DNA of 64,000 nt, taken from the NCBI RefSeq assembly GCF_020424085.1, contig NZ_CP080203.1, positions 1,240,001 to 1,304,000 on the forward strand. Direction: 5' to 3'. Positions within the stretch are counted from its first letter, which is position 1, and each line of letters begins with the position of its first letter. Under the pieces are notes generated by a model that searched no databases, had not been told where the DNA came from, and worked only from the letters and a program-made list of their open reading frames with translations. Of this stretch, positions 39,191 to 55,608 are shown in pieces. A program made the position numbers and the translations under genes. The stretch comes from Mycetocola spongiae. GTDB lineage: Bacteria > Actinomycetota > Actinomycetes > Actinomycetales > Microbacteriaceae.

Positions 39191-41578
39191 TCAGTCCAGC
39201 CCGGGCGCGGACTCGGACGCGGGGGTGGGGAGCACGGGCGCGGGCCGTTCGCGCCTCCCGGCCGCGCGCACCCGCCGCTTCCCGAGGGAGCGCGGCGAGA
39301 GCCAGGCCCGCAGGCGCGCCCAGCGGGAGAGGCTGTGATCCCAGCGCTCGCGGGTAGCCGCGATGCCGTCCCAATAGGCCTGCGCCCGCTCGGGGCCAAC
39401 CGGGTCCAGGTCAAATATTGCCCGGTCCGCCTCGCGCGCGAGCTCGGCAAATCCCTCGCGGTTGAGGGAGAGCGCATATTCGCGGCGCGTGGCCGGACCC
39501 GGGCGCGGGGCCCCGCGATCCACGGCCAGGTCCACCGCCTCCTCCCAGCCCGCGGCGATGCGTTCGCGCGGATCCTCGCGCCGGCGCCGGGCCCGCCGGC
39601 GCCAAAACTTGGTGCCGGCCGTGGCCAGGATCGGGGAGGCAAGAATCAGCAGCACCACGAGTCCCAGCGCCACATAGCCAAGCACGGTGAGCAGGGTTGC
39701 CAGCCAGGCGGAGTCCTCCCGCTCCTCCTCGAGCTCGCGCCCATCCGGGCGATAGGGCACAACGGAATCATCGCTCTCGGGGGCGGGGGGCGGCGGGATG
39801 CTCAGCGGATGCGATACCCGCTCGGGATCCAGCGGATCCTCCTCGGGGACCTCGCGCCATTCCGGGGTGGCGTCCAGGGAGACCCAGCCCTCGCGGGTAC
39901 TCACCTCGGTCCAGGCGGTCACGTCCTCGCCCGTGACCGTGCCCTCCTCGGAGGGAAGGAAACCAAAAACCACGCGCGCGGGAAAACCCAGCTGCTCGGC
40001 CAGTAGCGCGGCGGCTACCGCATATTGTTCGGCATCGCCGATCAGCCGCGGTCCGCCCAGGAACTGCGCCATCCGGTCCAGTGCGTGCCCCGAACGGCTA
40101 TATACCTCGCCGGGTCCGCCGTGGCTGATATAGCCCTCGCGCAATCCCGCCACGACCGCCGCGAGCTTCGCGCCGTCGCCGGTGACCCCCGCGGTCCACT
40201 CGCGCACGCGCGCGCGCAGCTCGGGCGGAACCTCATCGAGCTGCTGCATGCGGCCCGGGCCCGGGCGCAGCGCCGAGAGATCCGCGGAGTCATCCGGGGA
40301 GGCCAGCAGGGCATCCAGCCGATAGCTATCGCCCGCGGCCACGCCGGAGCGCACCGCCGCGGTGCCCCCACCGCGGTTATAAAAGAAGGAGTTATCCAGG
40401 GTCGCGGAGCGGTCACCATAAAAGTCCACGGCGATCAGCCTGCCCGCGGTGGGCAGCCAGACCCCGCGATAGCCGTCGATCGTGATCTCCACGCTCCGCT
40501 CGGTCTCCCCCGCCACCTCGGGCTGGTCGATCCGGTATGGCACGCGCCGGAAGTCCCCGGTATCGCTGGGTTCCTCGGGATAGCCGGCGCGATAAAACAC
40601 CCCGTCATAGGTATCCAGGGTGGCCACGCGGATGCGGGCCCCGGCGGGCAGGCCGCTCACGGTGAACTGTCGCTCCTCCCGGCGGTCCTCATTAAAATAG
40701 GCGCGGAACGAGGACAGCGGCGCGGCATATTCGCGAGTATCAAACGGCGGTTCGATGCTGTCACGCAGCACCAGGCGCGGCGTATCCGCCGGCAGCGCGG
40801 CCACCGCCGCCGCCGCGGCCCCGAGCCCCACGGCCACCACCAGGGCACCCGCGAGCACCGAGCGCGCCGAGCCGCGGGCCCCGCCGGTGCCCACGATCGG
40901 GGCCCCCTCGGTGGCCGCGAGTATCGCGGTGGCCCGGCCCCGGCGGACGCGTTCGCGCCAGATCAGCCAGACCAGCGCGATCACCAAAAACAGGCCGCCC
41001 TGCGCCGCCAGGAGCGCGTTGGGGGACAGCCCCACGATCGGCGAGAGGGGGCGGGAGACCCCCGCAAGAATGCCAAAGATCAGCACCAGAAGCGGCGCGG
41101 CCACCCCCAGGGGGGCCGTCCGGCGGGCCCGTAATATAAGCAGCAATCCGCCAAAGCCCAGAAAATAGAGCAGCAAAAACGGCGGGATCAGGAGGCCCTG
41201 ATACGCGCCCACGGGCGCGTCCACGGTGAGTAGTCGTTTCCAGGACAGCGCGGTCTCGCGCAGCAGCTTCAGCAGGGACTCCCCCGTGGGCAGCACGCCC
41301 CAGAGCGAGTGGCTGGGCAGCACCACGCCCGCACCAATTACCAGATACCCCACGAGTAACAGCGCGGGTGGCAGCCAGCGCGAGGCCCAGAATCCGCGGC
41401 GGCGGGCCGCGGTGAACAGCGCCAGGGCGCAACCCGCGGCGAGCGCGATGCCGCCGATCAGGAAGAGCCGCGGATGGCGATAGATGGGCCAGAGTGTGCT
41501 CAGCGCGAGCATCATCAGGACCATAAAAAACAGGATATTCAGGGCGCGTTGGCCGCGCTCGGGCCGCAGGCCGGTCAT
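39191..41578 (-). CDS. Transglutaminase-fold membrane protein with substituted catalytic residues
   Basis: 795 residues. Five to seven N-terminal helices in the first 255 residues, an extracytoplasmic region about 260-640 with the transglutaminase core, one further helix near 640-665 and a basic cytoplasmic C-terminus with a DUF4129-like part. In the core, GDAEQYAVAAALLAEQLGFPARV has Ala516 where the catalytic Cys is expected, and EDVTAWTEV has Thr554 in place of His; the Asp in LDATPEW (569) remains. It should be a non-catalytic homolog of the TgpA type. The gene overlaps DUF58 by four bases and is last in the operon. Confidence 0.87.
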   Translation of the reverse strand: MTGLRPERGQRALNILFFMVLMMLALSTLWPIYRHPRLFLIGGIALAAGCALALFTAARRRGFWASRWLPPALLLVGYLVIGAGVVLPSHSLWGVLPTGESLLKLLRETALSWKRLLTVDAPVGAYQGLLIPPFLLLYFLGFGGLLLILRARRTAPLGVAAPLLVLIFGILAGVSRPLSPIVGLSPNALLAAQGGLFLVIALVWLIWRERVRRGRATAILAATEGAPIVGTGGARGSARSVLAGALVVAVGLGAAAAAVAALPADTPRLVLRDSIEPPFDTREYAAPLSSFRAYFNEDRREERQFTVSGLPAGARIRVATLDTYDGVFYRAGYPEEPSDTGDFRRVPYRIDQPEVAGETERSVEITIDGYRGVWLPTAGRLIAVDFYGDRSATLDNSFFYNRGGGTAAVRSGVAAGDSYRLDALLASPDDSADLSALRPGPGRMQQLDEVPPELRARVREWTAGVTGDGAKLAAVVAGLREGYISHGGPGEVYSRSGHALDRMAQFLGGPRLIGDAEQYAVAAALLAEQLGFPARVVFGFLPSEEGTVTGEDVTAWTEVSTREGWVSLDATPEWREVPEEDPLDPERVSHPLSIPPPPAPESDDSVVPYRPDGRELEEEREDSAWLATLLTVLGYVALGLVVLLILASPILATAGTKFWRRRARRRREDPRERIAAGWEEAVDLAVDRGAPRPGPATRREYALSLNREGFAELAREADRAIFDLDPVGPERAQAYWDGIAATRERWDHSLSRWARLRAWLSPRSLGKRRVRAAGRRERPAPVLPTPASESAPGLD

Positions 41579-42960
41579 TTTCCGGCCGCCCGGGAGAGCG
41601 AGTTTTTCAGATCGTCCAGATAGCCGATCGAGAGCACCGTGAGGTTATCCACGTGCCGCACAGTGGGCACCACGCCGGGATTGCACACGAGCGCCACGAT
41701 CTCGGTTCCCAGCGGAAACGCGAGTGCGGCGGAACGGATCTGGGTGAGGGTGGGCACCGAGCCGCAGACCAAAAAGGCCACCGACACATCCGGTACCTCG
41801 GTCATGCTGACCCGGGTGAGTACCTGCAGTCCGATGCTCGCGGCGGAGTGGCCCACCCCGGAGAGGTCGTCCAGGAGCCGGGAGGGGCTGGTGCTGCGCG
41901 CATGCTCGGCATGCGGCGGGGAGGCAGCGTATTCGGGCTGTTCCCCCGAGTAGAGCACGGTGGTATCGCGGCCGTCGCGGATCGCGCGCACCCCGAGCGA
42001 GGCTGCCACACTCACGGCCAGTTCAAACTCCTCCTCGCTGAAATAATCGGCGCTATCGCAGGTGAGTGCGATCAGCAGCTGGCTGCGCCGGGTCTGCTCA
42101 AATTGCCGCACCATCATCGTGCCGGTGCGGGCGGTACTCTTCCAGTGAATATGGCGGCGATCGTCCCCGGGCACGTATTCGCGCAGCGCGTGAAAGGAGA
42201 TATCGCTCTCGGTCAGGTCGCCGCTGGGCATGCCCTCGAGGTCGCGGATTAATCCCGTGGAGGTCGAGGGCACCGGGATGGTCACGGGGTGCACAAATAG
42301 TGTTGCGCCCGCCGTCCACATCAATTCGCGCCGCAGCAGGTGCAGCGGGTCCTGGCGCACCGAGCGCACCGGGCCCACGGTGATCACCGAGCGGCGCACG
42401 GTGGGTACCCGGAACTCGCCTCGGAACTCCCCGCCGGCCGCGAGGCTGGGCAGGCGAAACTCGGCCCGGCCCTCCCCCACGGGAATCTCGATGCTTTCGG
42501 GCATTAGCCGGCGCCGGGTGGGGTTGCGGATGAGCACGGCTCCCGGGGCGTCCTCGCCCACCACCACGCGCGGGCTGTGCAGGTCCAGCTCCACCGAGTA
42601 CACGCTGCGGCCGATCATAAACAGTGCGGCAATGCCGGCAAATACCAGCGCGGCTACCCCCATAAAGATGGCCTCCACCCAGCCCAGCCAGAGCCCGAGG
42701 AGCGGGCCCAGCACGGCCACGCAGGCCACGGCCCGCCCGGGGCCGGTCACGGTGGCCATTACCCAGTCGCGGGCGCGGCCGAGCGTGCGCAGGGTCTGCG
42801 AACGTGCCCGCCGGGTCGCGCGCAGGAGGCGCACGCGGCGGGCCATTCCGGTACCCGTGAGCGAGGTGACGGTGGCCCCGGCGCGCGTGGTTGACCCGCG
42901 CCGGGTCGTGCGCACCGAGCGGGTTCCGGTGTCGTGGGGGTGGCGGCGTTTTTCGCTCAC
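41575..42960 (-). CDS. DUF58 (vWA-like) protein
   Basis: 461 residues from the GTG at 42960, overlapping the moxR stop. Basic N-terminus, two helices at about 75-115, then the DUF58 core with LREYVPGDDRRHIHWKSTARTG (in parts) and a von Willebrand A-like C-terminal region beginning QLLIALTCDSADYF, where the metal-site DxS is partly kept. DUF58 proteins work with MoxR ATPases, probably as the substrate-binding partner in protein maturation. Cotranscribed with moxR and the transglutaminase-fold gene. Confidence 0.9.
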   Translation of the reverse strand: MSEKRRHPHDTGTRSVRTTRRGSTTRAGATVTSLTGTGMARRVRLLRATRRARSQTLRTLGRARDWVMATVTGPGRAVACVAVLGPLLGLWLGWVEAIFMGVAALVFAGIAALFMIGRSVYSVELDLHSPRVVVGEDAPGAVLIRNPTRRRLMPESIEIPVGEGRAEFRLPSLAAGGEFRGEFRVPTVRRSVITVGPVRSVRQDPLHLLRRELMWTAGATLFVHPVTIPVPSTSTGLIRDLEGMPSGDLTESDISFHALREYVPGDDRRHIHWKSTARTGTMMVRQFEQTRRSQLLIALTCDSADYFSEEEFELAVSVAASLGVRAIRDGRDTTVLYSGEQPEYAASPPHAEHARSTSPSRLLDDLSGVGHSAASIGLQVLTRVSMTEVPDVSVAFLVCGSVPTLTQIRSAALAFPLGTEIVALVCNPGVVPTVRHVDNLTVLSIGYLDDLKNSLSRAAGK

Positions 42961-43958
42961 GCCACGGTTTCACGTTCCGAGGGCGGCGCGACCTCGATCA
43001 GGAGCCGGGAGATCACGGCATCGGCCGTGACCCCGTCAAATTCGGCCTCGGTATCCAGCATCAGCCGGTGGGTGAGTACCGGACCGGCGAGGGCCTTCAC
43101 GTCATCGGGCAGCACATAGCGCCGGCCCTGCACCGCGGCCCAGGTCTTGGAGCAGCGCACGAGCGCGAGGGCGCCGCGCACACTCACCCCGAGGCGCACC
43201 TCGGGGGCGCTGCGGGTGGCCTCGACGAGGCGGGCGATATAGTCGAGGATCGCCGGTTCCATATGCGCGGTCTGCGCGAGCGCGGCCATCTCGGCCACGT
43301 TTTCGCTTGTGATGATCGGTGCCAGTACCTGATCGTGGGCGCGTACCCCGGCATTGGCGAGGATATTCAGCGTGGCCCGGTGATCGGGATAGCCGAGCGA
43401 GGTTTTCATCATGAACCGGTCGAGCTGCGCCTCGGGCAGGCGATAGGTTCCGGCCTGCTCCACGGGGTTCTGGGTCGCGATCACCATAAACGGTCGGCCC
43501 ACGTTATGGGTCACGCCGTCCACGGTGACCCGCCCCTCCTCCATGACCTCCAGGAGCGCCGACTGGGTCTTGGGGCTGGCCCGGTTGATCTCATCGGCCA
43601 GCACGATGCTCGCGAAGATCGGGCCCTGGTGGAACTCAAACTCGCCGTGCTTCTGATCGTAGATACTCATTCCGGTGACATCGCCGGGCAGCAGATCGGG
43701 CGTGAACTGGATGCGGCTGCTTGTGCCGTGTACGCTCTGCGCGATGGCGCGGGCCAGCGAGGTTTTTCCGGTTCCAGGATAGTCCTCAAGGAGCAGGTGG
43801 CCGTTGGAGATCAGCGCCGTGAGGGCCAGCTGGATCACGCGGGTCTTGCCCAGCAGGGCACCCTCCACGTTGACCACCACGCGGTTAAACACATCGGCAA
43901 ACCACGCGGCCTGCTCCGTGGTCATCGACTGTTTTTCTTCGGGTGCTGCGTTAATCAT
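42957..43958 (-). CDS. MoxR-family AAA+ ATPase
   Basis: 333 residues from the ATG at 43958, inside the last codons of the giant surface-protein gene. Walker A DYPGTGKTS (59-67), Walker B VLADEINRA, sensor 1 region in FMVIATQNPVEQAGTYRLPEAQLDRF in parts, and the MoxR sensor 2 LGVSVRGALAL. A chaperone-like ATPase that assembles or activates partner complexes; here the neighbours suggest the DUF58 protein and possibly the surface protein as clients. Confidence 0.95.
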   Translation of the reverse strand: MINAAPEEKQSMTTEQAAWFADVFNRVVVNVEGALLGKTRVIQLALTALISNGHLLLEDYPGTGKTSLARAIAQSVHGTSSRIQFTPDLLPGDVTGMSIYDQKHGEFEFHQGPIFASIVLADEINRASPKTQSALLEVMEEGRVTVDGVTHNVGRPFMVIATQNPVEQAGTYRLPEAQLDRFMMKTSLGYPDHRATLNILANAGVRAHDQVLAPIITSENVAEMAALAQTAHMEPAILDYIARLVEATRSAPEVRLGVSVRGALALVRCSKTWAAVQGRRYVLPDDVKALAGPVLTHRLMLDTEAEFDGVTADAVISRLLIEVAPPSERETVA

Positions 43959-46900
43959 TATTCTCTTCCGGGGAATCGGCGCCGGGAGTGGCGGGGAGGT
44001 CAAGGAGCGTTCGGGAGACCCCACACGGGGCCGAGAGCAGCGGATCCGGGGTGCGCACATTGCCCAATCGCGCCCGCGCGATCACCTGATAGGCGATGGC
44101 CGGCACCCTGGCAGTCTCGGCGATGGTGTACTCGCGGCCGCCCGGACGGACGTTATAGCTATAAATGATGCCGTCGATTCCGGCGGCCCCGATGGCCATC
44201 GGCATTGCGCCGGCCAGTGTGCACTGATTGGCGTCTCCGGCCCAGGACAGGGAGAGGTCCATCGGCAGGAACGAGGCGGCCGGACCGGTCACGCAGCGGT
44301 CGCCGTTACAGACCTCCAGCCGCGCCTCATTGGTGCGGTTATAGTCATAGTCCACCGGGGTGAGGTTCAGCGGGACGCCGGGGGTGATCGCGAGGGTGCG
44401 GGCGCCGATCTTCAGGCGATAGATCACGCCCTCGGCCACCGCCCCGACGCTCACGCTCACGGGGGTGCGGTTCTCCACAAAGTCCCCCACGGTCACGCTG
44501 GGTGCGGCGGGCATACCGGGCTTCTTAAAATAATCCACCGTGATGCTCGCCGTATTACAGCCCCAACCATTGGAGACGGTCACGTGCAGGGTATGTGTGC
44601 CGGTCGCGGGATTGGGCAGGCTCGCCGAGGTGGCGGTGCCGGTGGCCGCCGCACACTCGGGCGCTGTATTTCCCCAGGCCGCGGCATAGGTGGGTGTGCC
44701 CCCGCCGGTATTATCCAGCGTCCAGTCCACGGTCAGTGCGGTGTCCTCGGCATGCCCACGATAGGTGAGGGTGGGGACGCCGGGGCGGTCCAGGATCGAG
44801 GTGGCTCCGCCCGTACCCACGTTCCACTGAATCGCACCATAGGTGGAGGTATCGATATTATTGCGGGCCTCCACGGTCACCGAATAGCCTCCGCGCGCGG
44901 GCAGCCCCGCGGGGGTGGAGATCGAGGTGCCCGCGGTGGAACCCGTCCACATCGGGGCGCCATCGGCCACCACGGTCACAATATAGTTATTGGCCGGGGT
45001 GCCGCCGCGCGGGGTCACCGATGCGGTCCAGGAGATGTCCAGGACTCCGCGGTTTCCGGGCGCAAATAGGTCATCGGCGGGCTGCTGCCGCGCCGTGATA
45101 TCGGTGGGCGCCTCGGGGATGAAGTCGATCCGCAGCGGCGCGCTCGCGGGACCCTCCGGGGAGGTACCCACCGAGTTGGTCGCGGTGGCCACATAGCGCA
45201 GGGCCGTCCCCACCGGGGCCTGCCCGGCGGTCACCGTACAGCTGGAGGTATCCAGCCCGCAGGAGACCTGCACCGAACCATCGGTGCTGCGCAGCCGATA
45301 CTCGGTGATCGGTTTGCCGTTGCTTGAGGCCGAACCCGCGAAGCTGATCCGCAGGGCCCCGTCGTTTCCGAAGTGATCCTGTTTCAGATAGGTGGGCACG
45401 CCGGGTGCCTCGGGCACATCCACCACCACGATCGTGACGGTTCCGGTGACCTCGCGCTCGCGCGCGCCGCTGGCATCGCGCACCCGATAGGTCAGGCGCA
45501 GATTCGAGGCGATCTCGGCGTTTTGGGTGGCCGTCACCGTGACCGAGCGGTTGCCCGAGGCCACGGCGCTGAGCCCGGGCACGGCGTTTTGCATCTCCAC
45601 GCTGATCAGGCTCAGCGGCATAAACTCCGCGGGGCCCACGTCATTGGCCAGCACGTCCACGGTGGCCGAGGAGCCCCGGCGCACCTCGATGGTATCGGGC
45701 AGCGCCTGCGCGAGCGGCTTGGTTGAGGTCACCACGGTCACCTCGATCGAGGCGGTCACCACGGTGCTCTCGGCATCGCGCACCCCGATCTGCACGTTAT
45801 GGTGGGCCCCGACGGTCGCATCGCGCGGGAGGGACAGCGTGAGCCGCGAGCCGCTCAGGCTCGCCTGCGCCCCCTCGGGGGCGCCCGCGGGCAGGTTCCA
45901 GACCAGGTCTCCCGCATCCTCGGGATAGGGATAGATGGTGAGGTCGCGCAGGTCCAGGGTGCGCGAGGCGGAGGGTTCCAGCGAAAGCGTGGATCCGCGC
46001 AGCACGGGCGGGGAATTATGCACGGGTGTCACCGTGATCGGGAGCACAATCGTGGCCCGGTTGGCATCGCCCGCGGGATCCCCATCCGCCACCTCCAGCA
46101 GGATCGACGCGGGACCCGAATAGCCCTGCTGCGACGTGAATTGCAGCGTTGTATCGTTCACCACGGGATTATCACCATTGGAATTGGTGGCCCGCACGGT
46201 GCCCGGATCGGCCACGCGCACGCGGCGGTCCCCCGCGGCGATGACCTGCTCCCCGAGCGGGATCACCAGCCGCTCGCCCGAGGCCACCGTGAGGTTTTTG
46301 GCATCGGCGCGGCGCTCGGGCACGCTGCTTTCAGCGGCGGGAACCCAGATAAAGCCGTAGCTGGAGATCTCCGGATTATCGCGCACGGATACCTTAAAGG
46401 GCAGAATCTGCGCCTGCGGGGTCACGATAATCTCGATGTTGCCGGCGGCGGTCACGCTGAGGTTTTTGCCCCAGCGCGGGACGCTTGAGAGCTCCAGATC
46501 GGAGTTTTTCCCCTCGGCATAAAACACGCCGTCCCAGACGTCCACCGCGAGCGTCTCGCGCACCTTGGCGATATCGGTCAGGGTCAGGACGGTGTCCTCC
46601 ACGATTGGTCGCACGGGCGGGGCGTCCGCGCGCGCGTTGACCTGAATCCACGCGGAACTGCGGCCACCCGCGGCGCTCTCGATCGTATAGAGCACGCTGT
46701 GGACCCCCTCCCCGCGGGGAACCTCCAGGGTCACGGTATCCTCGGTGAACTCGGTGGGGATCTCCGCACTCTGTTCCACGTCCACGATCTTGAGTCCGCC
46801 CCCGTCGGGATCGGAATCATTCAGCAGGGGCTGCACGGTGAAGCGGGTTCCCGGGCTCACGGTGAGGACATCGGTGCGGGCAATGGGATCGCGGGCGATG

Positions 46901-49803
46901 GCCGAGGCCTCGGCGATACCCACCCGAATCTGGGCGGTGCCGCTCAGGCCCAGCCCATCGCGCACGGCATAGTGAAATACATCGGTACCCCACTCGGCAT
47001 CGCCCGCCCGATAGTCAAAATAATCCTTGCCGGTGGCCACAATCATGCCCTTTTCCGGGGCCGATTGCAGGCCCGTGAGGGTCACCGAATCGCCGTCATC
47101 ATCGATGCCCGAGAGGGGAATCTGAATCCGCACGGTATTTCCCTGGGTCACGCGCGCGGTCACCGTATGCGGCTGCGGGGCGGTATTGGATCCACGATCC
47201 ACCTCGCGCACCGAGATCTGCACGGGTGCCGAGGCGCTCTCGCCACCCGGGCTCTCCACCACATAGGTCGCGGAGTACTCGCCGGGCTTATCGGGGGCCA
47301 GATAGCGCAGGGTATTGCCGGAGGTGAAGAGCAGGCCCTCATCCTCCGAGAGCTCGCGGGCCAGGGTGGGGCTCAGCGTGAGCGGGAGCCCATCGGGGTG
47401 AATATCGTTTTTGAGTACGTCGATATCCACTACCTCGCCCACCCGCACGATCGCGCGGTCGGGCATCGCCACGGGCGGTTTTTCGCGCGCGGGTGGTTCC
47501 ACCTGGGTCACCGAGACTGTGCCCGTGGTGCTCTGGGCGCCGTTGCTCACCACATAGGAAAACTCGGTCTGGCCGTCCGGGAGTGGCTCGCTCAGCGAGA
47601 CCCGCAGCAGCGAGTGCCCAAGCGATTCCACCAGCAGGCCCGCGATGCCCGGGGGCGAGATCACGTCGGTGATCACCAGGACGCCGCCCGCGGGGTCATA
47701 GTCCCGGGCCAGGATATTGATGGTATCGGTCTGCCCCAGATAGAGGAACGCCGAGGCCCCCACCGCGACCGGCGGCAGGTTATCCTCGGGGGCCGCGGTG
47801 ACCTCAAAGCGCAGGTGTCCCGAGGCGGCCACCACACCATCACCCACCTGATATTCAAAGAGATAGGTGCCGGGTTCGCCGGCCTGGAAGCTCACGTCGC
47901 CGCTGGAGGTATCCACCCGCAGGCGTATACCCTCGCGATCCTCCACGGGCACGCCGATCAGGCGCACGTTGCCGTTTCCGCCGCGCACCATTTCCAGCGG
48001 TGAGGCGATTAATTCGCTGCCCACAACCCCGCTCACGGTGACCGGCTCGGCGATGATGGGCACATCGGCGCCCAGCACCTCGATATCCAGCAGGCCGGAG
48101 CCCTGGGAGTGGCCATCGGAGACGATCAGGCCCACCGATTTGCTGGCCCCACCCTCGCCGGAGTCCTGATAGTACACGGTGCCGGAGGCGGCAAAGGTCG
48201 CGCTATCGGGCGCGCCGATACTCGTCTCGGCGAGGAAAAACGGGTCACCATCGGGGTCATACCAATCGGCGAGAATATCGCGCTGGAAGGCCCCGCCGGG
48301 CAGGATGGCATTCACCGTGCGCCGCGCCTGCACGGGCGGGTTATTCTCCGCCGAGGTACGCACCTGCACCGTGACATTGGCGCTCGCGCGCCCGCCGTGG
48401 CCATCGGAAATGCCGTAGCCAAACGTGAATTCTCCCGCGGCATTATCGCGCAGCGACACGCTCAGCTGCTGGCCGTGCAGGACGATCGCGACCGAGCCCA
48501 TCTCCTCGGGAAAACCGGTCACCTCGTCGATATAGAGGGCATCACCATTGGGATCAAAATCGTTGAGCAGCACGGGGAGCGGGCTGGTGCGGCCCGGGCG
48601 GGCACCAAATACATCGTCCACCGCGACCGGCGGCTTCTGCACGGGGTCCACCTCGGCGGGAAGGGTGGGATCGTTGATCTCCTCCTTATCGCGGTCCTCG
48701 ATATCGTCGAGAATCTCGTCCCAGTTATTCACGAGCTGGCCCGCGTCCTGGATCATCCAGGCGCGGCCGGTGCCGGCATCGTTAAGCACCACGGCGCCCG
48801 AGCGCGCCACAAAGCGCAGCTGCGCCCCCGCGCCGAGGCCCTCCAGGCGGGTGGTCTCGGGGCTGCGCGTGCCACACTGACTCCACAGGGTTCCCTCGCC
48901 CCAGGCGGCAAATACGCAGCCATCCACGAGCACCGGGACCGCCGGTTCGGCGTCCTCCAGCGAGAGCACGCGGGTCGCGCGGCCATCGCTAAACGAGCGG
49001 CTGAGCAGCCCCTCGCTATCGGCAATAAAAATGGTTTCGGCGCTCACGCTTGAGGAGATCAGGCGCGCACCCGGGGCGGCCCCGCTCTCGGTTGCCGCAC
49101 CGCCGTCCACGCTGATCGCCCCGCTCTCGCGGTTGAGGATCACGGCGCGGCCCGAGAGCACGGCCGCGGCATATTCGTCTTCCTCGCTGCCCAGGTCCAC
49201 CGGGGTGCCGCTTTCGGGGCGCACGGTGGCATCAATCGAGGTCTTAATCAGCCCGCTCTGCACCGAGTATCCGGCAAAATTGCCGTCCCGGTCCACCGCC
49301 ACGGCCGAGTTTTTTCCGAGCACCAGATCCGGCTCGGAATCGGGCCCAAATGAGTCCAGGGAGTTGAGATTAATAAACCAGACCCGGCCGGTGGGCGCGG
49401 CGTGCACCACCACCGTGCGATCGCTCAGCAGCACCTCCGAGGAATCGGTGGGCAATTGGATCCGCTCGCCGATTGTGCTGAGCGTTTCGTCCACCACCCC
49501 CAGTTCCTTCTGTGCCGTGGCGTGCACGAGCACCATCGCGGAGTTTTGCACGGTGATCACGTCGCGGTTCTCGGAGCGCTCGGCGCTATCCAGCGCGCGG
49601 ATCTGGGTATTCAGCCGCCCGATCGCGTTCTCGGAGCCGTTCACGACCCAGGTTCCCGCGTCGTTCAGATCCACGCGTTCGGTGCGATAGCCGCCCGAGG
49701 CAATAGCGATCACGGCCACCAGGGTCAGCACCAGGACCGCCGCCAGCGATCCATAGGCGAGGGCGAGGTTGCGGCGCACCCAGGCGCGAACCGCGGCGAT
49801 CAT
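43951..49803 (-). CDS. Giant membrane-anchored surface protein with tandem Ig-like and FN3 domains
   Basis: 1950 residues from the ATG at 49803 (ATGA overlap with the kinase). A short basic cytoplasmic start, one membrane helix at about 17-36, then an outward region: about 40-385 with propeller-like strands (RVWFINLNSLDSFG, CVFAAWGEGTLWSQCG), about 391-1455 with roughly ten cadherin/Ig-like units carrying the PPVAVDDV and NDFDPNGDAL type motifs, and about 1460-1930 with FN3-like units (VPEAPGVPTY, EAPTDITARQ, RPGVPTLTY, MPAAPSVTVG). No LPXTG sorting signal. The C-terminal domains have paired cysteines. Type II anchoring, probably a cell-wall-spanning sensor or scaffold. Encoded between kinase and MoxR genes, so phosphorylation or assembly by them is plausible. 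Confidence 0.85.
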   Translation of the reverse strand: MIAAVRAWVRRNLALAYGSLAAVLVLTLVAVIAIASGGYRTERVDLNDAGTWVVNGSENAIGRLNTQIRALDSAERSENRDVITVQNSAMVLVHATAQKELGVVDETLSTIGERIQLPTDSSEVLLSDRTVVVHAAPTGRVWFINLNSLDSFGPDSEPDLVLGKNSAVAVDRDGNFAGYSVQSGLIKTSIDATVRPESGTPVDLGSEEDEYAAAVLSGRAVILNRESGAISVDGGAATESGAAPGARLISSSVSAETIFIADSEGLLSRSFSDGRATRVLSLEDAEPAVPVLVDGCVFAAWGEGTLWSQCGTRSPETTRLEGLGAGAQLRFVARSGAVVLNDAGTGRAWMIQDAGQLVNNWDEILDDIEDRDKEEINDPTLPAEVDPVQKPPVAVDDVFGARPGRTSPLPVLLNDFDPNGDALYIDEVTGFPEEMGSVAIVLHGQQLSVSLRDNAAGEFTFGYGISDGHGGRASANVTVQVRTSAENNPPVQARRTVNAILPGGAFQRDILADWYDPDGDPFFLAETSIGAPDSATFAASGTVYYQDSGEGGASKSVGLIVSDGHSQGSGLLDIEVLGADVPIIAEPVTVSGVVGSELIASPLEMVRGGNGNVRLIGVPVEDREGIRLRVDTSSGDVSFQAGEPGTYLFEYQVGDGVVAASGHLRFEVTAAPEDNLPPVAVGASAFLYLGQTDTINILARDYDPAGGVLVITDVISPPGIAGLLVESLGHSLLRVSLSEPLPDGQTEFSYVVSNGAQSTTGTVSVTQVEPPAREKPPVAMPDRAIVRVGEVVDIDVLKNDIHPDGLPLTLSPTLARELSEDEGLLFTSGNTLRYLAPDKPGEYSATYVVESPGGESASAPVQISVREVDRGSNTAPQPHTVTARVTQGNTVRIQIPLSGIDDDGDSVTLTGLQSAPEKGMIVATGKDYFDYRAGDAEWGTDVFHYAVRDGLGLSGTAQIRVGIAEASAIARDPIARTDVLTVSPGTRFTVQPLLNDSDPDGGGLKIVDVEQSAEIPTEFTEDTVTLEVPRGEGVHSVLYTIESAAGGRSSAWIQVNARADAPPVRPIVEDTVLTLTDIAKVRETLAVDVWDGVFYAEGKNSDLELSSVPRWGKNLSVTAAGNIEIIVTPQAQILPFKVSVRDNPEISSYGFIWVPAAESSVPERRADAKNLTVASGERLVIPLGEQVIAAGDRRVRVADPGTVRATNSNGDNPVVNDTTLQFTSQQGYSGPASILLEVADGDPAGDANRATIVLPITVTPVHNSPPVLRGSTLSLEPSASRTLDLRDLTIYPYPEDAGDLVWNLPAGAPEGAQASLSGSRLTLSLPRDATVGAHHNVQIGVRDAESTVVTASIEVTVVTSTKPLAQALPDTIEVRRGSSATVDVLANDVGPAEFMPLSLISVEMQNAVPGLSAVASGNRSVTVTATQNAEIASNLRLTYRVRDASGAREREVTGTVTIVVVDVPEAPGVPTYLKQDHFGNDGALRISFAGSASSNGKPITEYRLRSTDGSVQVSCGLDTSSCTVTAGQAPVGTALRYVATATNSVGTSPEGPASAPLRIDFIPEAPTDITARQQPADDLFAPGNRGVLDISWTASVTPRGGTPANNYIVTVVADGAPMWTGSTAGTSISTPAGLPARGGYSVTVEARNNIDTSTYGAIQWNVGTGGATSILDRPGVPTLTYRGHAEDTALTVDWTLDNTGGGTPTYAAAWGNTAPECAAATGTATSASLPNPATGTHTLHVTVSNGWGCNTASITVDYFKKPGMPAAPSVTVGDFVENRTPVSVSVGAVAEGVIYRLKIGARTLAITPGVPLNLTPVDYDYNRTNEARLEVCNGDRCVTGPAASFLPMDLSLSWAGDANQCTLAGAMPMAIGAAGIDGIIYSYNVRPGGREYTIAETARVPAIAYQVIARARLGNVRTPDPLLSAPCGVSRTLLDLPATPGADSPEENND

Positions 49804-51248
49804 CGGGTGCCCGCGCAGGTCTCGGGGCCGGCAGGCCCGGGCTTGCCATCGCGGGTGACCGCGACGCTGATGCATACGGGCGCGCCGCTGCCGTCCGCGG
49901 TGATGCGGAACTCGCGGTTGGCCTGTGCGGCGGGGGTGCCCTCGCGCGGCGTCACCAGATAGCGGTCATTTTCGGAGAGTCCCGGATCGGCCCAGGTGAA
50001 GACCACCACGCCGCCCTCCAGGGTGGAGCTAATCTCGGTGACCATCGGCAGCTCATCCGAGCGGGAGAACCAGAGCAGCCCCACGGAGGTGGCCACCACG
50101 GCGAGCGCCGCGATGCCCCCGATCAGCGATACGGTGCGCGTGCGCCGGCGGCGCTCCTCGCGGGAGCGGGTCACGGTGGAACCCGCGGGTCGCAGCACCG
50201 TGAGGGCGCTATCGCCCAGGGCGCTGTCCATGCCACTGCTCTCCTGCACCACGCTCCGGCCGGAGCCCGAGTGCCGATAGCGGCGCGGCGCACCCGAGGC
50301 CCCCGCGCGGCGCGGGGGTTCGGCCACGGGCGCGGCGAGGACCGCGCGGGAATCCTCGATACGGTTGTCATCGGCGATCTCGGCCACGGTCTGTACCAGG
50401 CCCAGGCCGGCCTCCGCGAGCTGCAATTCGCGGACAAATTCAAGCATGGTCGCGGGACGCTCGGCGGGATCCTTGGAGAGCGCGCGGGCGAGCGTGGCCT
50501 CGAGCTCCGGCGGCACATCGAGGCGGCCGAGGGGTTGCAGGCGATCGCGGCCGATGATGCGGGCATGGATGCGCTCGCGGCGATTCACGGCGCGCTCATC
50601 CTCGGGGTGTTCAAAGGGAGAGCGCCCGCGCAGCAGCGTAAACAGGGTCGCGGCGAGGGAATAAACCTCGCTGCGCGGCGTGCCCTGGGTATCCTCGCGC
50701 AGGACCTCGGGTGCGGACCAGGGCACGGACATGCCCTCGGCCTGCGCATTGGCCGAGGCCGCGAGGGTAGCGGCAATACCAAAATCGGCCAGCACGGGAT
50801 GGCCGTACTGGGTCAACAAAATATTGGAGGGTTTAATATCCCGGTGCAGGAAGCCGATGCGGTGCGCGGTCTCCAGGGCCCCGCCGATCTTGATCCCCAC
50901 GCGCAGCACCTCGTCCACCCCGAGCGGCGCATCCTTATATCCCGAGCCGAGCGAGGACGGGCAGTATTCGAGCACCAGATAGGGGCGGCCATCGGGGGCG
51001 ATGCTCGCCGAGTGCACCGTGAGCACCGCGGGATGGTTTTTCAGCTGCGACATCAGGTTCGCCTCGGACAGGAACATCGCGCGCTGTTTGGCGTCGGCGA
51101 TCTTGGGCATCAGCACCTTCACGGCCACCTCGCCGCGCGGGAAGTCCTTCTCATAGAGATACACGTAGGCGAAGCCTCCGCGGCCCAGCACACGGATGTG
51201 CTGATAGCCGGAGAGGATCGGGGGCGCGATTGACTGGTGTGCGGTCAC
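49800..51248 (-). CDS. Transmembrane Ser/Thr protein kinase
   Basis: 482 residues from the GTG at 51248. Kinase domain about 14-280: glycine loop GRGGFAYVY (22-30), catalytic Lys44, HRDIKPSN with Asp137, DFG 155-157, and SAPE at 178-181 for the APE motif. The activation segment (158-178) holds only one Thr, next to the DFG, and is Ala/Ser-rich. A juxtamembrane linker contains ALTVLRPAG (T350). One membrane helix at 372-394 precedes an outer domain of about 85 residues that looks FN3-like (GGVVVFTWADPGLSENDRYLV) with two cysteines; no PASTA units. A PP2C phosphatase and two FHA proteins are encoded just upstream. Confidence 0.93.
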   Translation of the reverse strand: MTAHQSIAPPILSGYQHIRVLGRGGFAYVYLYEKDFPRGEVAVKVLMPKIADAKQRAMFLSEANLMSQLKNHPAVLTVHSASIAPDGRPYLVLEYCPSSLGSGYKDAPLGVDEVLRVGIKIGGALETAHRIGFLHRDIKPSNILLTQYGHPVLADFGIAATLAASANAQAEGMSVPWSAPEVLREDTQGTPRSEVYSLAATLFTLLRGRSPFEHPEDERAVNRRERIHARIIGRDRLQPLGRLDVPPELEATLARALSKDPAERPATMLEFVRELQLAEAGLGLVQTVAEIADDNRIEDSRAVLAAPVAEPPRRAGASGAPRRYRHSGSGRSVVQESSGMDSALGDSALTVLRPAGSTVTRSREERRRRTRTVSLIGGIAALAVVATSVGLLWFSRSDELPMVTEISSTLEGGVVVFTWADPGLSENDRYLVTPREGTPAAQANREFRITADGSGAPVCISVAVTRDGKPGPAGPETCAGTR

Positions 51249-51303: not shown

Positions 51304-53817
51304 CTATCCGGCCTCGGTCACGATAAAGAATTCATTTCCCACCTCGACCTGACTGCCAACCTCCACAAAGACCTGCTCGCCGGGGATCAGTTCCTGCTCG
51401 GTGGCGCGGGGGGAACGCACGCGGGTGCCGTTTCCGGAGCCGCGGTCGCGGATCCACAGCTCACCCTCCTCGATGCCCAGCTCCAGGTGGGTTTTGGAGA
51501 CCGAGCGGGCGGGATCGGCGACCATAAACATCGCGGTGAAGAGCTCATCGGGGCCGGCGAGGGGCTTGCGGCCCATCAGGGAGGCCCCGGTGACCCAAAA
51601 CTCCTGGCCCGAGCCAAATCGCAGGACGTAGCGGGTTGCGGATCGTCTCCGCATGCGCCGCCGCGAAATCACGTTCTGGCCGGCGGTGGGTACCGAGGTG
51701 CCGCTTCCCGGGGTCGGGGCGCCGGCCGCGGGGATGCCGGCCGCGGGGGTGGGCGCGGCGGCCGCGGGGGTTTCGGGCGGGGCGATGCCCGCCGGGGGCG
51801 TGGGCGCGGATAGCTGGCCGCCCGGCGTCGCGATAACGGGTTCGGCGGCGGGTGTGGGCTCGGGCAGCAATGCGGCGGGCTCGGGCAGCGGCGCGACCGC
51901 GGACGGGGCCGGGGCGGGCAGCGGCGGGACCGAGTCCGCGGGCGCGGGCGTGACGGCCTCGGCCGGCTCGGGCGCAATAACGGGCTCGGGCACGGCAACC
52001 GGCTCGGGCATCATCATCGGCTCGGGTACGGCTACGGGCTCGGGCGCAATAGCCGACTCGGGTCGGATCGCCGGGGCCTCCTGCACGGGCACGCGGGCAG
52101 CCGCTTCCACGCCGACGTCCGGGGTGGCCGGGGCCGATTCGCGCCCGGTCGGCTGTAGCCGTTCCTGCGCCTGCAGGCGTTCCTGCGCGGCCGAACGCTC
52201 GCGCAGGGCGGGCGCACCGGTTTTTGCCGGTCGCGGGGTCGGCGCGGGCCGCGCCCCGGCGGCTGCACCGAGGTGCGCGGCGGGAAGCGGACCGGGTCCG
52301 GGCTTGGGAATCGCGCGCGGGGTGGGGCCCGGGGCCGAGGGCTCGGGCGGCATCATGGAGGTGAATGCTGCCACCGCCGCCACGGCGGACGCGAGTGTGG
52401 CCGATATTTCGGGCGTGCCCCCGGTCTCCTCGGGATGGGTATGGGCGAGGGGATTCGCGGCGGGGGTCGGCTCCGCGGGCGCGGCCGGCACGGGCGCGGG
52501 CGCTACCGGGGGTACCGGCGGTGCGGGAACGGTCGGTGCGGGAAGGGTCGGCGCCGGCAGGGTCGGTGCGGGAATGGCCGAGACGGTCGGCACGGGCGCA
52601 CCCGCGGTGGCCCGGTGGGCATAGTCGGGGGCGGCACCGGTGGGCTCGGTATCGCCGTTAAGCGCGAGGTCCTCCGCGGCGCTGAGCGATCGGGCGAGGG
52701 CCGCGCGCTGCTCGGCGGCCAGGGCAAGCGCCTCCGCGGCCAGACGCACGGTTTCCGGGGTCGGGACGGGGATCGGCCGGATCGGCAGCGGCGAGTCCTC
52801 CGCGGGCGCATCGCTGCCCGCCGAGACGTCGGGGGTCGCGGGCTCGGCGGGACGCGCGGGCGCGATCAATACGGGCTCCGCGGGACGCGCGGGCGCGGCA
52901 GCCTCCGCGGGGATAACCGCCGCGGGGGCCGGCGATACTCCCGGCTCGGCGGAAGGCGGCATCGCGGGCATCACCGGCAGATCCGGGACCGCGGGCTCGC
53001 CCAGTACCGCTGTCATCTCCGCCCGCGGCATCATCGGCATCGCGGGCTCGCCCGCTATCGCGGTCATCTCCGCCGCCGGCGGCATCGCGGGCATTACCGG
53101 CATCACCGGCAGGTCCGGCAGCACGGGCTCGCCCGCCACCGCGGTCAGCTCCGCCACCGGAGGCAGGGGCTCGGCAAATTGCGGCATCGAGGGCACGACC
53201 GGCGCGGCGGGCACTGTGGGCTCGACCGTGCCCGGCAGGGGCGGAAGGGTCGCCGCGGGTGCCGGGGTGGTCTCCGCCAGGGCGGCGGGGTCCATCGCGG
53301 GTGCCGCACCGATGTTCTCGGCGCCGTCCGGCTCGGCGGCATGTGCGGCCGCGGCCGTGCGGCGCTGGGCGCGCGTGGTGCCCGCGGTCATCTCCTCGGA
53401 CATCGGAAAGGCATAGGACAGTTCGGCGGCATCGGTCAGGCCCGCCGTGCGCTCAAGCGCACCGGCCTCGCGCCGTCCCGCCCGGGTGCTCGTGGCGGCC
53501 TCCCGCGCCGAGCGCCCCGCGGGATGCTCCGCGGGGACCGTGCCGGGCAGCGGCGGGCGCGGCGGCACCAGGGTGCCATCGGGCAGGATCAGCGTGACCG
53601 AGGGGGCCACGCTAAACGTGGGCATCGGCGGCTCCTCCGCGGTCGTCGCGCCGGGGACGGGAGGCAGCGGGGGTAGCTCGGGGGGCAGCGTGGACTCGGT
53701 CGCGCCGCGGGGAGCGGCCGGGGCCATCCCGCCGCTTCCGGCGAGCATCCCGCACTCGGCACAAAAGAGGCTACCGGGCACGGCGGGGTGCCCACACCGT
53801 TCGTGTGGCGTAGTCAT
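51304..53817 (-). CDS. FHA protein with N-terminal zinc ribbon and long Pro/Ala linker
   Basis: 837 residues. Residues 8-22 contain CGH and CAEC, a possible zinc ribbon. About 600 residues of low-complexity Pro/Ala/Glu sequence follow, with internal repeats. The FHA domain (about 735-832) has LMGRKP, SVSKTHLEL and RGSGNGTRV, the full phosphothreonine-binding set. ATG overlaps the PP2C stop. It would bind phosphorylated partners of the adjacent kinase. Base composition of the linker is extreme GC, which gives long false frames on the other strand. Confidence 0.9.
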   Translation of the reverse strand: MTTPHERCGHPAVPGSLFCAECGMLAGSGGMAPAAPRGATESTLPPELPPLPPVPGATTAEEPPMPTFSVAPSVTLILPDGTLVPPRPPLPGTVPAEHPAGRSAREAATSTRAGRREAGALERTAGLTDAAELSYAFPMSEEMTAGTTRAQRRTAAAAHAAEPDGAENIGAAPAMDPAALAETTPAPAATLPPLPGTVEPTVPAAPVVPSMPQFAEPLPPVAELTAVAGEPVLPDLPVMPVMPAMPPAAEMTAIAGEPAMPMMPRAEMTAVLGEPAVPDLPVMPAMPPSAEPGVSPAPAAVIPAEAAAPARPAEPVLIAPARPAEPATPDVSAGSDAPAEDSPLPIRPIPVPTPETVRLAAEALALAAEQRAALARSLSAAEDLALNGDTEPTGAAPDYAHRATAGAPVPTVSAIPAPTLPAPTLPAPTVPAPPVPPVAPAPVPAAPAEPTPAANPLAHTHPEETGGTPEISATLASAVAAVAAFTSMMPPEPSAPGPTPRAIPKPGPGPLPAAHLGAAAGARPAPTPRPAKTGAPALRERSAAQERLQAQERLQPTGRESAPATPDVGVEAAARVPVQEAPAIRPESAIAPEPVAVPEPMMMPEPVAVPEPVIAPEPAEAVTPAPADSVPPLPAPAPSAVAPLPEPAALLPEPTPAAEPVIATPGGQLSAPTPPAGIAPPETPAAAAPTPAAGIPAAGAPTPGSGTSVPTAGQNVISRRRMRRRSATRYVLRFGSGQEFWVTGASLMGRKPLAGPDELFTAMFMVADPARSVSKTHLELGIEEGELWIRDRGSGNGTRVRSPRATEQELIPGEQVFVEVGSQVEVGNEFFIVTEAG
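52960..53165 (-). repeat. Internal repeat in the FHA protein linker
   Basis: Three degenerate copies of a unit AExTAxxGEPxxP, in two cases followed by DLPVMP, occur in the Pro/Ala linker (for example AELTAVAGEPVLPDLPVMP). They are visible in the DNA as repeated blocks reading CGCGGTCATCTCCGCC or similar. Function unknown; each has a Thr that could be phosphorylated. Confidence 0.6.
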
Positions 53818-54701
53818 GATCCGTCCTTTCCGGGGAGCCGGTTGTGGTTATCGAGTGGGGAATGGGTGAGGGGGCGGGCGTGTCTGCCGCCGCCGGACTC
53901 CCCAGGGGTCCGGCGTGCGGCCCCGCGAATCTCGCCGGCGCGCACCACCACGGCGGTTACGTTATCGCGGCCGCCCGCCGCGAGGGCCTCGGCGATCAGG
54001 CTGTCCACGGCGATCCGGGGCGTGGGCGCCGCGGAGAGGATCGCATGGATTTTCTCCTCGCTCACCTCCGCGGTGAGCCCATCGGAGCAGCAGAGGACGG
54101 TGCTGCCCGCCAGGATGGGGATCAGCCAATAATCCGGCACCGGGTCCGCCTCAAATCCCACGGCCCGGGTGATCACGTTGCGCCTGCGGTCGGTGGCCGC
54201 CTGATCGGTGGTCAGCGCACCCCCGTCCACAAGCGCCTGGACCACTGAGTGATCCACACTGACCCGGGAAAACTCCTCCCCGGAGAGCAGATAGGCGCGG
54301 GAATCCCCGAGATTAAAGAACATCCAATACGGCGCGCCCGCGCGCTCGGTCACGGTCACGCCCACCACGGTGCTGCCGCCGCCCCCGCCGATCACACCGG
54401 TATGCTCCGCGATCAGCTCGGTGGCGCGCGCGAGCCCACCCTGAATCTGTTCGGGACCCATGGGTGTTTCGCGCAGCGCCGCGAGCGAACCGGTGACCGC
54501 CGCACTTGCCAGGTCCCCGGCGGCGTGTCCGCCCATGCCATCGGCCACCACAAAGAGCGGCGCCCGGGCAAAAAAACTATCCTCATTGCGTTCGCGGGTG
54601 AGCCCGGTATCGGTGCCCCCGGCCCAGCCGAGCATCACCGAGCATTCCCGCGAGGGCGCGGTCCATATCCCGCCCAGTCCGGGCGCGGGTGCGGCGCTCA
54701 T
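53814..54701 (-). CDS. PP2C-family Ser/Thr protein phosphatase
   Basis: 295 residues from the ATG at 54701 (ATGA overlap). All metal-site motifs are kept: RNEDSFF, VADGMGGHAAGD, FNLGDSRAYLL, CCSDGLT and GGRDNVTAVVV. Cytoplasmic, no membrane segment. It should reverse phosphorylation by the kinase encoded two genes downstream. The C-terminal 35 residues are a basic, Gly/His-rich tail. Confidence 0.95.
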   Translation of the reverse strand: MSAAPAPGLGGIWTAPSRECSVMLGWAGGTDTGLTRERNEDSFFARAPLFVVADGMGGHAAGDLASAAVTGSLAALRETPMGPEQIQGGLARATELIAEHTGVIGGGGGSTVVGVTVTERAGAPYWMFFNLGDSRAYLLSGEEFSRVSVDHSVVQALVDGGALTTDQAATDRRRNVITRAVGFEADPVPDYWLIPILAGSTVLCCSDGLTAEVSEEKIHAILSAAPTPRIAVDSLIAEALAAGGRDNVTAVVVRAGEIRGAARRTPGESGGGRHARPLTHSPLDNHNRLPGKDGS

Positions 54702-55474
54702 GCGTCCCCCTCCGCGCGGACGGGTAGTGTCCCCACCCGGATGCCCTCGCCCAGGTCCAGGACGCTGCCCGGCAGCACCACCACCGGGATCCCGGCGCGC
54801 AGGCGCTGAGATCGGCCACCGGGCACCAGGAGCATCGTGCCATTGGCCGAGTGCAGGTCCTCGGCGAGGAGGGCCTGGCCCTCCTGCCACAGGCGCAGGT
54901 GGCTCCCGGAGATCTCTCCCGCGGGTGAGGGCACGGCGATAAGCGTGGGCAGGGCCCCGCTGCGCACGCGCGCGGAGCGGGGGCTACGCCCGAGGATCAG
55001 CGCGCCGTCGAGGGTGACCACACCGTGGCCCGTGATCTCCACCCGCAGGGCGGGAAGCCCGGAGGCCGGGCTCGGCTCGTCCGCGGTGGGCACCGGGGGA
55101 ATGCTGGGGATCACCGGCGCCTGCGGCGGCGGGAGCCTGTCCATTCCACCCACAAGGGTGTGATCGGCCAGCGCCGCGAAGGGTGCCCCGAGCACGGTGT
55201 CATCGGTATCGTTGATCCAGCCGGCATTCAGCACGGTGGCATCGGAATCGGCCGCCCGCACATCCACCAGGATGGTATCGTCATGCACACCCACCCAGTG
55301 TGCGTTTAAGACGGTATCCCCGGCATCACCCGAGGTGGCGTTAAACAGGGTCGCCTCGGCCTCCGCCTCCGCTGTATGCGCGGGCGTTCCCTCGCCGAGG
55401 ATCGTGGATTCGGTGGCATCGGTATCGCCCGGAGTGAGCAGCGTTGCGTCTCCGGGGTCGTGAAGGGCACTCAC
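54698..55474 (-). CDS. Small FHA protein with N-terminal DxT repeat array
   Basis: 258 residues from the GTG at 55474, chosen because it overlaps the stop of an upstream small ORF in GTGA; an ATG at 55552 in the same frame has no ribosome site. Residues 1-110 hold eight motifs of Asp/Glu-x-Thr-aliphatic type (T11, T24, T42, T54, T67, T80, T93, T106), most 13 residues apart. A Pro-rich linker leads to the FHA domain (about 142-250) with ILGRSP, EISGSHLRL and HSANGTML. The array could be phosphorylated by the operon kinase and read by the FHA domains in cis or trans, as GarA/OdhI do with one site. Confidence 0.85.
   Translation of the reverse strand: MSALHDPGDATLLTPGDTDATESTILGEGTPAHTAEAEAEATLFNATSGDAGDTVLNAHWVGVHDDTILVDVRAADSDATVLNAGWINDTDDTVLGAPFAALADHTLVGGMDRLPPPQAPVIPSIPPVPTADEPSPASGLPALRVEITGHGVVTLDGALILGRSPRSARVRSGALPTLIAVPSPAGEISGSHLRLWQEGQALLAEDLHSANGTMLLVPGGRSQRLRAGIPVVVLPGSVLDLGEGIRVGTLPVRAEGDA
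55157..55444 (-). repeat. 13-residue periodic Thr motif array
   Basis: Encodes the eight TLL/TIL/TVL-type motifs of the small FHA protein. Intervals between threonines are 13, 18, 12, 13, 13, 13 and 13 residues, so the repeat is regular apart from one insertion. DATVLNAGW and GDTVLNAHW are the closest copies. Confidence 0.75.
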
Positions 55475-55608
55475 CGTGCCCCGTCCACGCGCGGGAAAAT
55501 TACGGTGGGCGTGGCCGCCCCCGTAACGCCGAGAATTACATTCGGAGTCCATCGCGAAACTGATCGGGATTCGGCGGGAAGGCCAAAAAATCCGTCGGTC
55601 GTTTTCAT
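55471..55608 (-). CDS. Putative 45-residue leader protein of the kinase operon
   Basis: ATG at 55608, TGA at 55471-55473 overlapping the GTG of the FHA gene. The frame begins MKTTDGFFGLPAES and ends TVIFPRVDGAR. The -10 hexamer TACAAT lies nine bases upstream of the ATG, so the transcript would start at or within a few bases of it, giving leaderless translation, common in actinobacteria. No family is recognised. The GTGA coupling supports real translation; a chance ORF remains possible. Confidence 0.5.
   Translation of the reverse strand: MKTTDGFFGLPAESRSVSRWTPNVILGVTGAATPTVIFPRVDGAR

Follow-up and report, generated by a model that had tools for sequence, protein, structure and literature searches.

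Why should a small FHA protein, encoded beside a kinase and a phosphatase, carry a short threonine motif eight times over ahead of its FHA domain? The question is raised by a 64,000-nucleotide stretch of the Mycetocola spongiae genome (NZ_CP080203.1, positions 1,240,001 to 1,304,000; hereafter the window, in whose own coordinates all positions are given). GarA and OdhI carry one or two adjacent threonines in an N-terminal ETT phosphosite. The window protein resembles them in being a small FHA protein with threonine sites in its N-terminal tail, and departs from them in its eight spaced motifs, in its residues at +1 and +3, and in belonging to a different operon; no ETT occurs in its residues 1–118. 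The likeness extends to an acidic residue at −2 and a hydrophobic one at +2 around the threonine (PMC6733907, in excerpt).

The gene run and its threonine array

The small FHA gene opens a set of minus-strand genes in which neighbors overlap by 4 bases at five of the seven junctions. Its residues are numbered from a GTG start; an ATG at 55552 is an alternative that would add 26 residues and shift the numbering only. The genes are listed from the head of the run.

54698..55474, minus strand: small FHA protein, 258 residues, the operon's first gene, GTG start at 55474
53814..54701, minus strand: PP2C-type Ser/Thr phosphatase with DGMGGH and GRDN motifs, overlapping the small FHA gene by 4 bases
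51304..53817, minus strand: second FHA protein, 837 residues, overlapping the PP2C gene by 4 bases
49800..51248, minus strand: Ser/Thr protein kinase with HRDIKPSN and DFG, a hydrophobic stretch lying 3′ of the kinase domain
43951..49803, minus strand: giant Big_9/cadherin-like repeat protein, 1950 residues (Pfam)
42957..43925, minus strand: MoxR-type AAA ATPase (AAA_3), start assigned in this analysis
41575..42960, minus strand: DUF58 protein (domain match)
39191..41578, minus strand: TgpA_N/transglutaminase-like protein (domain match)

Gene order and domain matches thus bear out the original prediction that the kinase, the phosphatase and the second FHA protein share one gene run with the small FHA protein, and the order FHA–PP2C–kinase–Ig–MoxR–DUF58 recurs in relatives. 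The run also recalls the PFNA operons of Bifidobacterium, ordered pkb2-fn3-aaa-atp-duf58-tgm, to which some species add prpC and fha (PMC8430577, in excerpt): like the PFNA core, the window has a kinase, a giant surface protein, a MoxR-type AAA ATPase, a DUF58 protein and a transglutaminase in order, but its PP2C and two FHA genes lie upstream of the kinase rather than after the five core genes. A Pfam search of the giant protein at E 0.001 returned Big_9 and cadherin-like models only, with no fn3 row. For the FHA proteins of PFNA operons, the available part of the source gives a general phosphopeptide-binding role and mentions no threonine array (PMC8430577). The host genome holds two more PFNA-like operons, L067 (G000:C1:1008001-1028000) and L068 (G000:C1:1548001-1568000); in L067, five [DE]-x-T-[VI]-[VIL]-R motifs occur in the FHA protein, and the kinase gives no match to the pattern HRD[IVL]KPxN.

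Within the small FHA protein, translation from the GTG at 55474 recovers the eight threonines originally described, at intervals of 13, 18, 12, 13, 13, 13 and 13 residues across 55444–55157.

55442..55444, minus strand: Thr codon of motif 1, T11, DATLL
55403..55405, minus strand: Thr codon of motif 2, T24, ESTIL
55349..55351, minus strand: Thr codon of motif 3, T42, EATLF
55313..55315, minus strand: Thr codon of motif 4, T54, GDTVL
55274..55276, minus strand: Thr codon of motif 5, T67, DDTIL, in a column invariant in alignments of 14 and 27 rows
55235..55237, minus strand: Thr codon of motif 6, T80, DATVL
55196..55198, minus strand: Thr codon of motif 7, T93, DDTVL, invariant in 27 rows and nearly so in 14
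55157..55159, minus strand: Thr codon of motif 8, T106, DHTLV

The context is, as claimed, mostly Asp/Glu-x-Thr-aliphatic, with Asp or Glu at −2 in seven of the eight copies (the exception, T54, is preceded by Gly at −2 and Asp at −1). Position +1 is V, I or L and +2 is L, F or V throughout (8/8), +3 is N, G or another residue, and no copy (0/8) has a hydrophobic residue (V/I/L/M/F) at −3. Residues 1–118 contain 15 threonines, eight of which belong to motif copies. When the residues of this segment were shuffled 20,000 times, the motif with D, E or G at −2 reached a mean of 0.17 and a maximum of 3, against eight observed; with D or E only at −2, the corresponding values were 0.11 and 3, against seven. 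Five of the seven gaps equal 13, and at least five equal gaps arise under random placement at a frequency of 6e-5 in what is a post hoc test.

The likeness of the copies lies mainly at the protein level, since the 39-nt units around copies 2–8 share a pairwise identity of 36–67% against a background of 32%. Tandem Repeats Finder (TRF), run on the array DNA, returned a 6-base element only and no tandem repeat matching the array, and the codons vary from copy to copy; the pattern is therefore held at the protein level. A recent tandem DNA duplication as the origin of the array is ruled out by the TRF result together with the low identity of the 39-nt units.

The array is followed by the domain that would read it.

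54728..55045, minus strand: FHA domain, residues 144–249 of the small FHA protein (alignment, AlphaFold2 and fold search)

AlphaFold2, given a 27-row alignment, assigns block pLDDT values of 43–57 to residues 1–110 and 87–97 to residues 141–250, and leaves the chain without predicted secondary structure up to residue 144, beyond which it gives an FHA fold. The array is thus predicted to sit in a disordered tail, ahead of a confidently predicted FHA fold. All 50 top VIA-align matches shown are, judged by title, FHA domains or FHA-containing entries, among them CT664 (Z 13.4), DgcB with its tail (13.2), MDC1 with its own N-terminal phosphopeptide (12.7), OdhI (12.2) and GarA (11.9). Profile matches are fainter: Pfam PF00498 scores 20.3 bits on the protein, just below its cut-off of 20.7, and 22.8 bits in the genome search, and an NCBIfam scan returned only FhaB_Rv0019c, weakly, at 18.3 bits and far under the cut-off of 125. 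Across 27 hand-picked aligned rows, G162, R163, S189, H192, N211 and G212 are invariant together with T67 and T93. We take R163, S189, H192 and N211 to be the Arg, Ser, His and Asn of usual FHA phosphopeptide binding; on that assignment, the phosphopeptide-binding site of the domain is intact.

Could the repeats be simply compositional or structural, an acidic low-complexity tail or a beta-forming repeat devoid of any phospho-signaling role? The tail is indeed abundant in A, D, T, L and G, as such an account would have it. Motif counts that far exceed what composition yields, and the lack of predicted secondary structure before the FHA domain, make this explanation highly improbable.

Conservation and copy number in related operons

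Proteins matching the small FHA protein were found in 164 of 199 family genomes, a count that perhaps includes other FHA proteins. A scan of named genomes contributed the best 80 of 81 loci, mainly from Microbacteriaceae with some other actinomycetes. Motif statistics were drawn from 60 de-duplicated loci, the window among them, each with an identified FHA, PP2C and kinase; the Ig protein was also required, and waived for a few short loci. Thirty-two rows were left out, including the array-bearing L067, L073, L151 and L154, which were read by eye. Most counts refer to the 110 residues that directly precede the FHA domain in stop-to-stop frames, and true starts, chiefly that of Klugiella, are unsure because the frames run from stop to stop.

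Across the last 110 pre-FHA residues of these 60 operons, the full motif was observed 86 times against 4.1 expected by shuffling, kinship being ignored. At least one full motif occurs in 46 of the 60 tails, one or two in 39 and none in 14, and copy number ranges from 0 to 17. An acidic-Thr-[VIL] site is present in 56 of the 60 operons (window included) and absent in four, two such sites being the commonest number (34/60). The motif, as read across these operons, is a trait of the whole family; eight copies are untypical of relatives, where one or two prevail.

The original prediction took conservation of both the threonines and their spacing as its touchstone, and the alignment of homologs divides the two. 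The threonines are kept, as T67 and T93 illustrate, even though the surrounding tail aligns poorly, which also tells against the compositional account. The 13-residue spacing is not kept: gaps range from 7 to 249 residues, and outside the window protein only three of 56 equal 13. This range among relatives rules out the spacing as a conserved ruler.

Around the threonine, relatives are enriched in D at −4 and −1, D or E at −2, L at −3, I or V at +1, L, I or V at +2 and R at +3, giving the family consensus D-x-[DE]-D-T-[VI]-[LIV]-(R). The central residue is strongly biased. In the context [DE][DE]x[VIL][VILMF], it is threonine in 47 of 49 cases and serine in none (0/49); in a looser context 86 Thr face 3 Ser, and the rest of these tails contains 327 Thr and 341 Ser (a Fisher test that ignores ancestry gives 5e-21). 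As a control, the FHA part of the proteins has 5 Thr and 37 Ser. A second control, the Ig protein, shows a threonine excess in this context too, with 162 Thr to 92 Ser where its overall content is 11,952 Thr and 10,942 Ser. A scarcity of serine at the center is as expected of an FHA ligand.

Two further FHA proteins in the collection carry repeats of their own. That of L117, an Aeromicrobium MAG, has a near-perfect tandem GEETAV/GEETVM/GEETVA, perhaps a young array, and that of L166, from Galactobacter, repeats a unit D-x-[DV]-[AV]-T-[IV]-T-A ahead of the FHA domain, a different Thr-containing repeat.

How the copies multiplied was followed on a kinase tree of 66 of 96 loci, the 30 left out including L067 with its five copies. 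The window, G003 and Klugiella xanthotipulae form a clade (support 100/99). G003 has nine copies; K. xanthotipulae has about 17 in an uncertain 554-residue pre-FHA frame and three in the last 110 residues; the next row on the tree, G140, has three. Arrays of four or five copies occur elsewhere, in the paralogous L067 of the same genome, in G098 (L073), in G023 (L080) and in Leifsonia/Okibacterium (L151, L154). Arrays of at least four copies require at least four changes on the tree, against a mean of 6.8 under shuffling, and none of 500 shuffles was as low (66 rows; near-copies help this figure). One array placement is unsure, L073 grouping with L166 on long branches. Arrays of at least four copies are heritable, yet were gained or lost more than once; their clustering on the kinase tree indicates that they persist once formed.

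These distributions bear on the chief alternative account, in which one phosphosite is enough for a GarA/OdhI-like cis switch and extra copies are near-neutral, adding little beyond local concentration. The prevalence of one or two full motifs and the breadth of both copy number and spacing speak for it. Against it, all three rows of the window clade (3/3) have at least eight copies, the window copies are not accompanied by a DNA-level repeat, and the clustering of larger arrays argues slightly against drift. Taken together, these observations leave the single-site account doubtful in our judgment.

Kin sites in the second FHA protein and the kinase

The motif has counterparts in two other products of the operon. 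Twenty-three second-FHA rows were compared, comprising 20 chosen from the better matches together with G003, Klugiella and the window. In 21 of the 23, [DE]-x-T-x-[IL] lies 30–34 residues before the FHA GR, with the consensus D-[VL]-E-x-T-R-[IL]-V. The window protein is one of the two exceptions, having, when read by eye, Asn at the Thr position (GQNVIS, 51655–51681), so that, among the 22 sequences other than the window, 21 have the conserved pre-FHA motif. In the kinase, [DE]xTx[VIL]R occurs near the membrane in 46 of 63 sequences (shuffle mean 1.3), and T[VILM][VILM]R in the tail in 28 of 63 (shuffle mean 2.2), the stretches being delimited by a crude rule from the late kinase domain to the first hydrophobic stretch. 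A D-L-E-D-[RK]-T site, found in 25 of 63 kinases, is absent from the window kinase, which has the following element.

50181..50210, minus strand: SALTVLRPAG of the kinase, preceding the hydrophobic stretch and resembling T-[VI]-[LI]-R

Published self-tails of DgcB, GarA and OdhI have hydrophobic residues at −3, +2 and +3, Glu at −2 and Ser at +1 (PMC6733907, in excerpt). The second FHA motif fits this rule at −3, −2, +2 and +3 and lacks the Ser at +1, whereas the small-FHA tail motif favors R at +3 in place of a hydrophobic residue. Such a misfit, and the presence of acidic-Thr-hydrophobic sites in the kinase too, would suit a tail that serves solely as a kinase/phosphatase substrate or docking segment (a phosphorylation sink, or a place where some non-FHA partner binds) and is not an FHA ligand. 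Set against this, the near absence of serine from the motif center is in keeping with an FHA reader, and both FHA proteins have the motif immediately in front of their FHA domain. The serine scarcity is not decisive, because kinases can prefer threonine too; on balance we consider a substrate-only tail unlikely.

The gene for the second FHA protein has a history of its own. Its product finds a match in 186 of 299 family genomes, often to the FHA part only, and among the gene orders compared the window, G003 and Klugiella alone place it between PP2C and kinase. In G191, G143, G037, G023 and G036 some 14 kb separate it from the first FHA gene, the distance to be expected if it stood at the operon's far end. 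Given the widespread matches and this placement in relatives, the gene probably moved rather than newly appeared. Its gain was accordingly rejected as the cause of the array.

Two other features of the second FHA protein deserve record. Its linker holds three copies of AE[LM]TA[VI]xGEP (53125–53154, 53044–53073 and 52993–53022), a possible Thr-site repeat that the G003 and Klugiella versions of the protein do not show. Its N-terminus (53752–53796) is zinc-ribbon-like, with CxxC...CxxC in G003 and Klugiella and the first Cys replaced by His in the window; Pfam lists no zinc-ribbon domain there.

A proposed multivalent tail and its meaning

Clustered TQ sites near an FHA domain are a feature of the eukaryotic Chk2 and Rad53. 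The window differs in having T-[VIL]-[LFV] beside a bacterial kinase, and Gln follows Thr in none of its eight copies (0/8). In two other eukaryotic proteins, TIFA and MDC1, a phospho-Thr ahead of the FHA domain drives self-association, through a single Thr in TIFA and through the protein's own N-terminal phosphopeptide in MDC1, as far as partial sources and PDB titles tell. Among bacteria, the FHA domain of Bdellovibrio DgcB (FHA-GGDEF) recognizes its own phosphorylated N-terminal tail; DgcB has one tail Thr and an enzymatic output domain, unlike the window protein (PMC6733907, in excerpt). For the FHA module of Mycobacterium tuberculosis Rv1747, PknF lowers the condensate threshold and PstP reverses the effect (PMC9312465, in excerpt). 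Rv1747 likewise combines FHA domains with a disordered linker, but its FHA domains are two and sit on an ABC transporter, and the available part of the source mentions no motif array (PMC9312465). Self-reading FHA tails and FHA condensates are already known (PMC6733907, PMC9312465). Among the open-licence titles and abstract openings listed, none describes such an array in a bacterial FHA protein from operons of this type.

Our preferred reading, to which we assign a probability of roughly 0.6, is that the array comprises kinase-written, PP2C-reset and FHA-read sites, in effect a GarA/OdhI-type switch made multivalent; the steps from phosphorylation through binding and clustering to output are inferred from sequence and structural models. 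The eight motifs would act as short phospho-acceptor sites in a disordered tail, their threonines phosphorylated by the operon kinase and reset by the operon PP2C phosphatase. The phospho-Thr sites would then be ligands of the protein's own FHA domain, in cis or in a neighboring copy, with the FHA domain of the second FHA protein as a possible further reader. Relatives with one or two sites would retain a GarA/OdhI-type switch, which would have been multiplied in the window clade. Multiplication of copies raises valence, so that the sites, once phosphorylated, would probably bring about self-association at the kinase. As each chain has eight sites and a single FHA domain, phosphorylation would favor chains and clusters at the kinase. 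Clustering would in turn yield a graded, avidity-based response and could gather the MoxR–DUF58–transglutaminase machinery at the membrane. Points against this switch are the labile copy number and spacing, the 14 of 60 tails devoid of a full motif, the misfit to the self-tail rule at +3 and −3, the absence of a D-L-E-D-[RK]-T site from the window kinase, and the threonine excess of the Ig protein.

We entertain more tentatively a reading in which the tail would be a multivalent phospho-Thr/FHA scaffold, its valence set by the copies per tail, in which kinase activity would drive homotypic FHA–pThr networks that draw in the kinase together with the second FHA protein. Here the clusters or condensates themselves would switch the MoxR–DUF58–transglutaminase envelope machine in a graded way. 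Because the site of the second FHA protein itself is lost in the window, the expanded array would have taken over the signal.

As judged from sequence, the array looks like an expanded phosphorylation-controlled assembly tail in a family whose members usually have one or two copies. The occurrence of one short motif in three operon products, namely both FHA proteins and the kinase, suggests a private phospho-code of such operons and names candidate sites. The natural copy numbers, from one or two to about 17 in related operons, form a ready series on phosphosite valence and kinase response.
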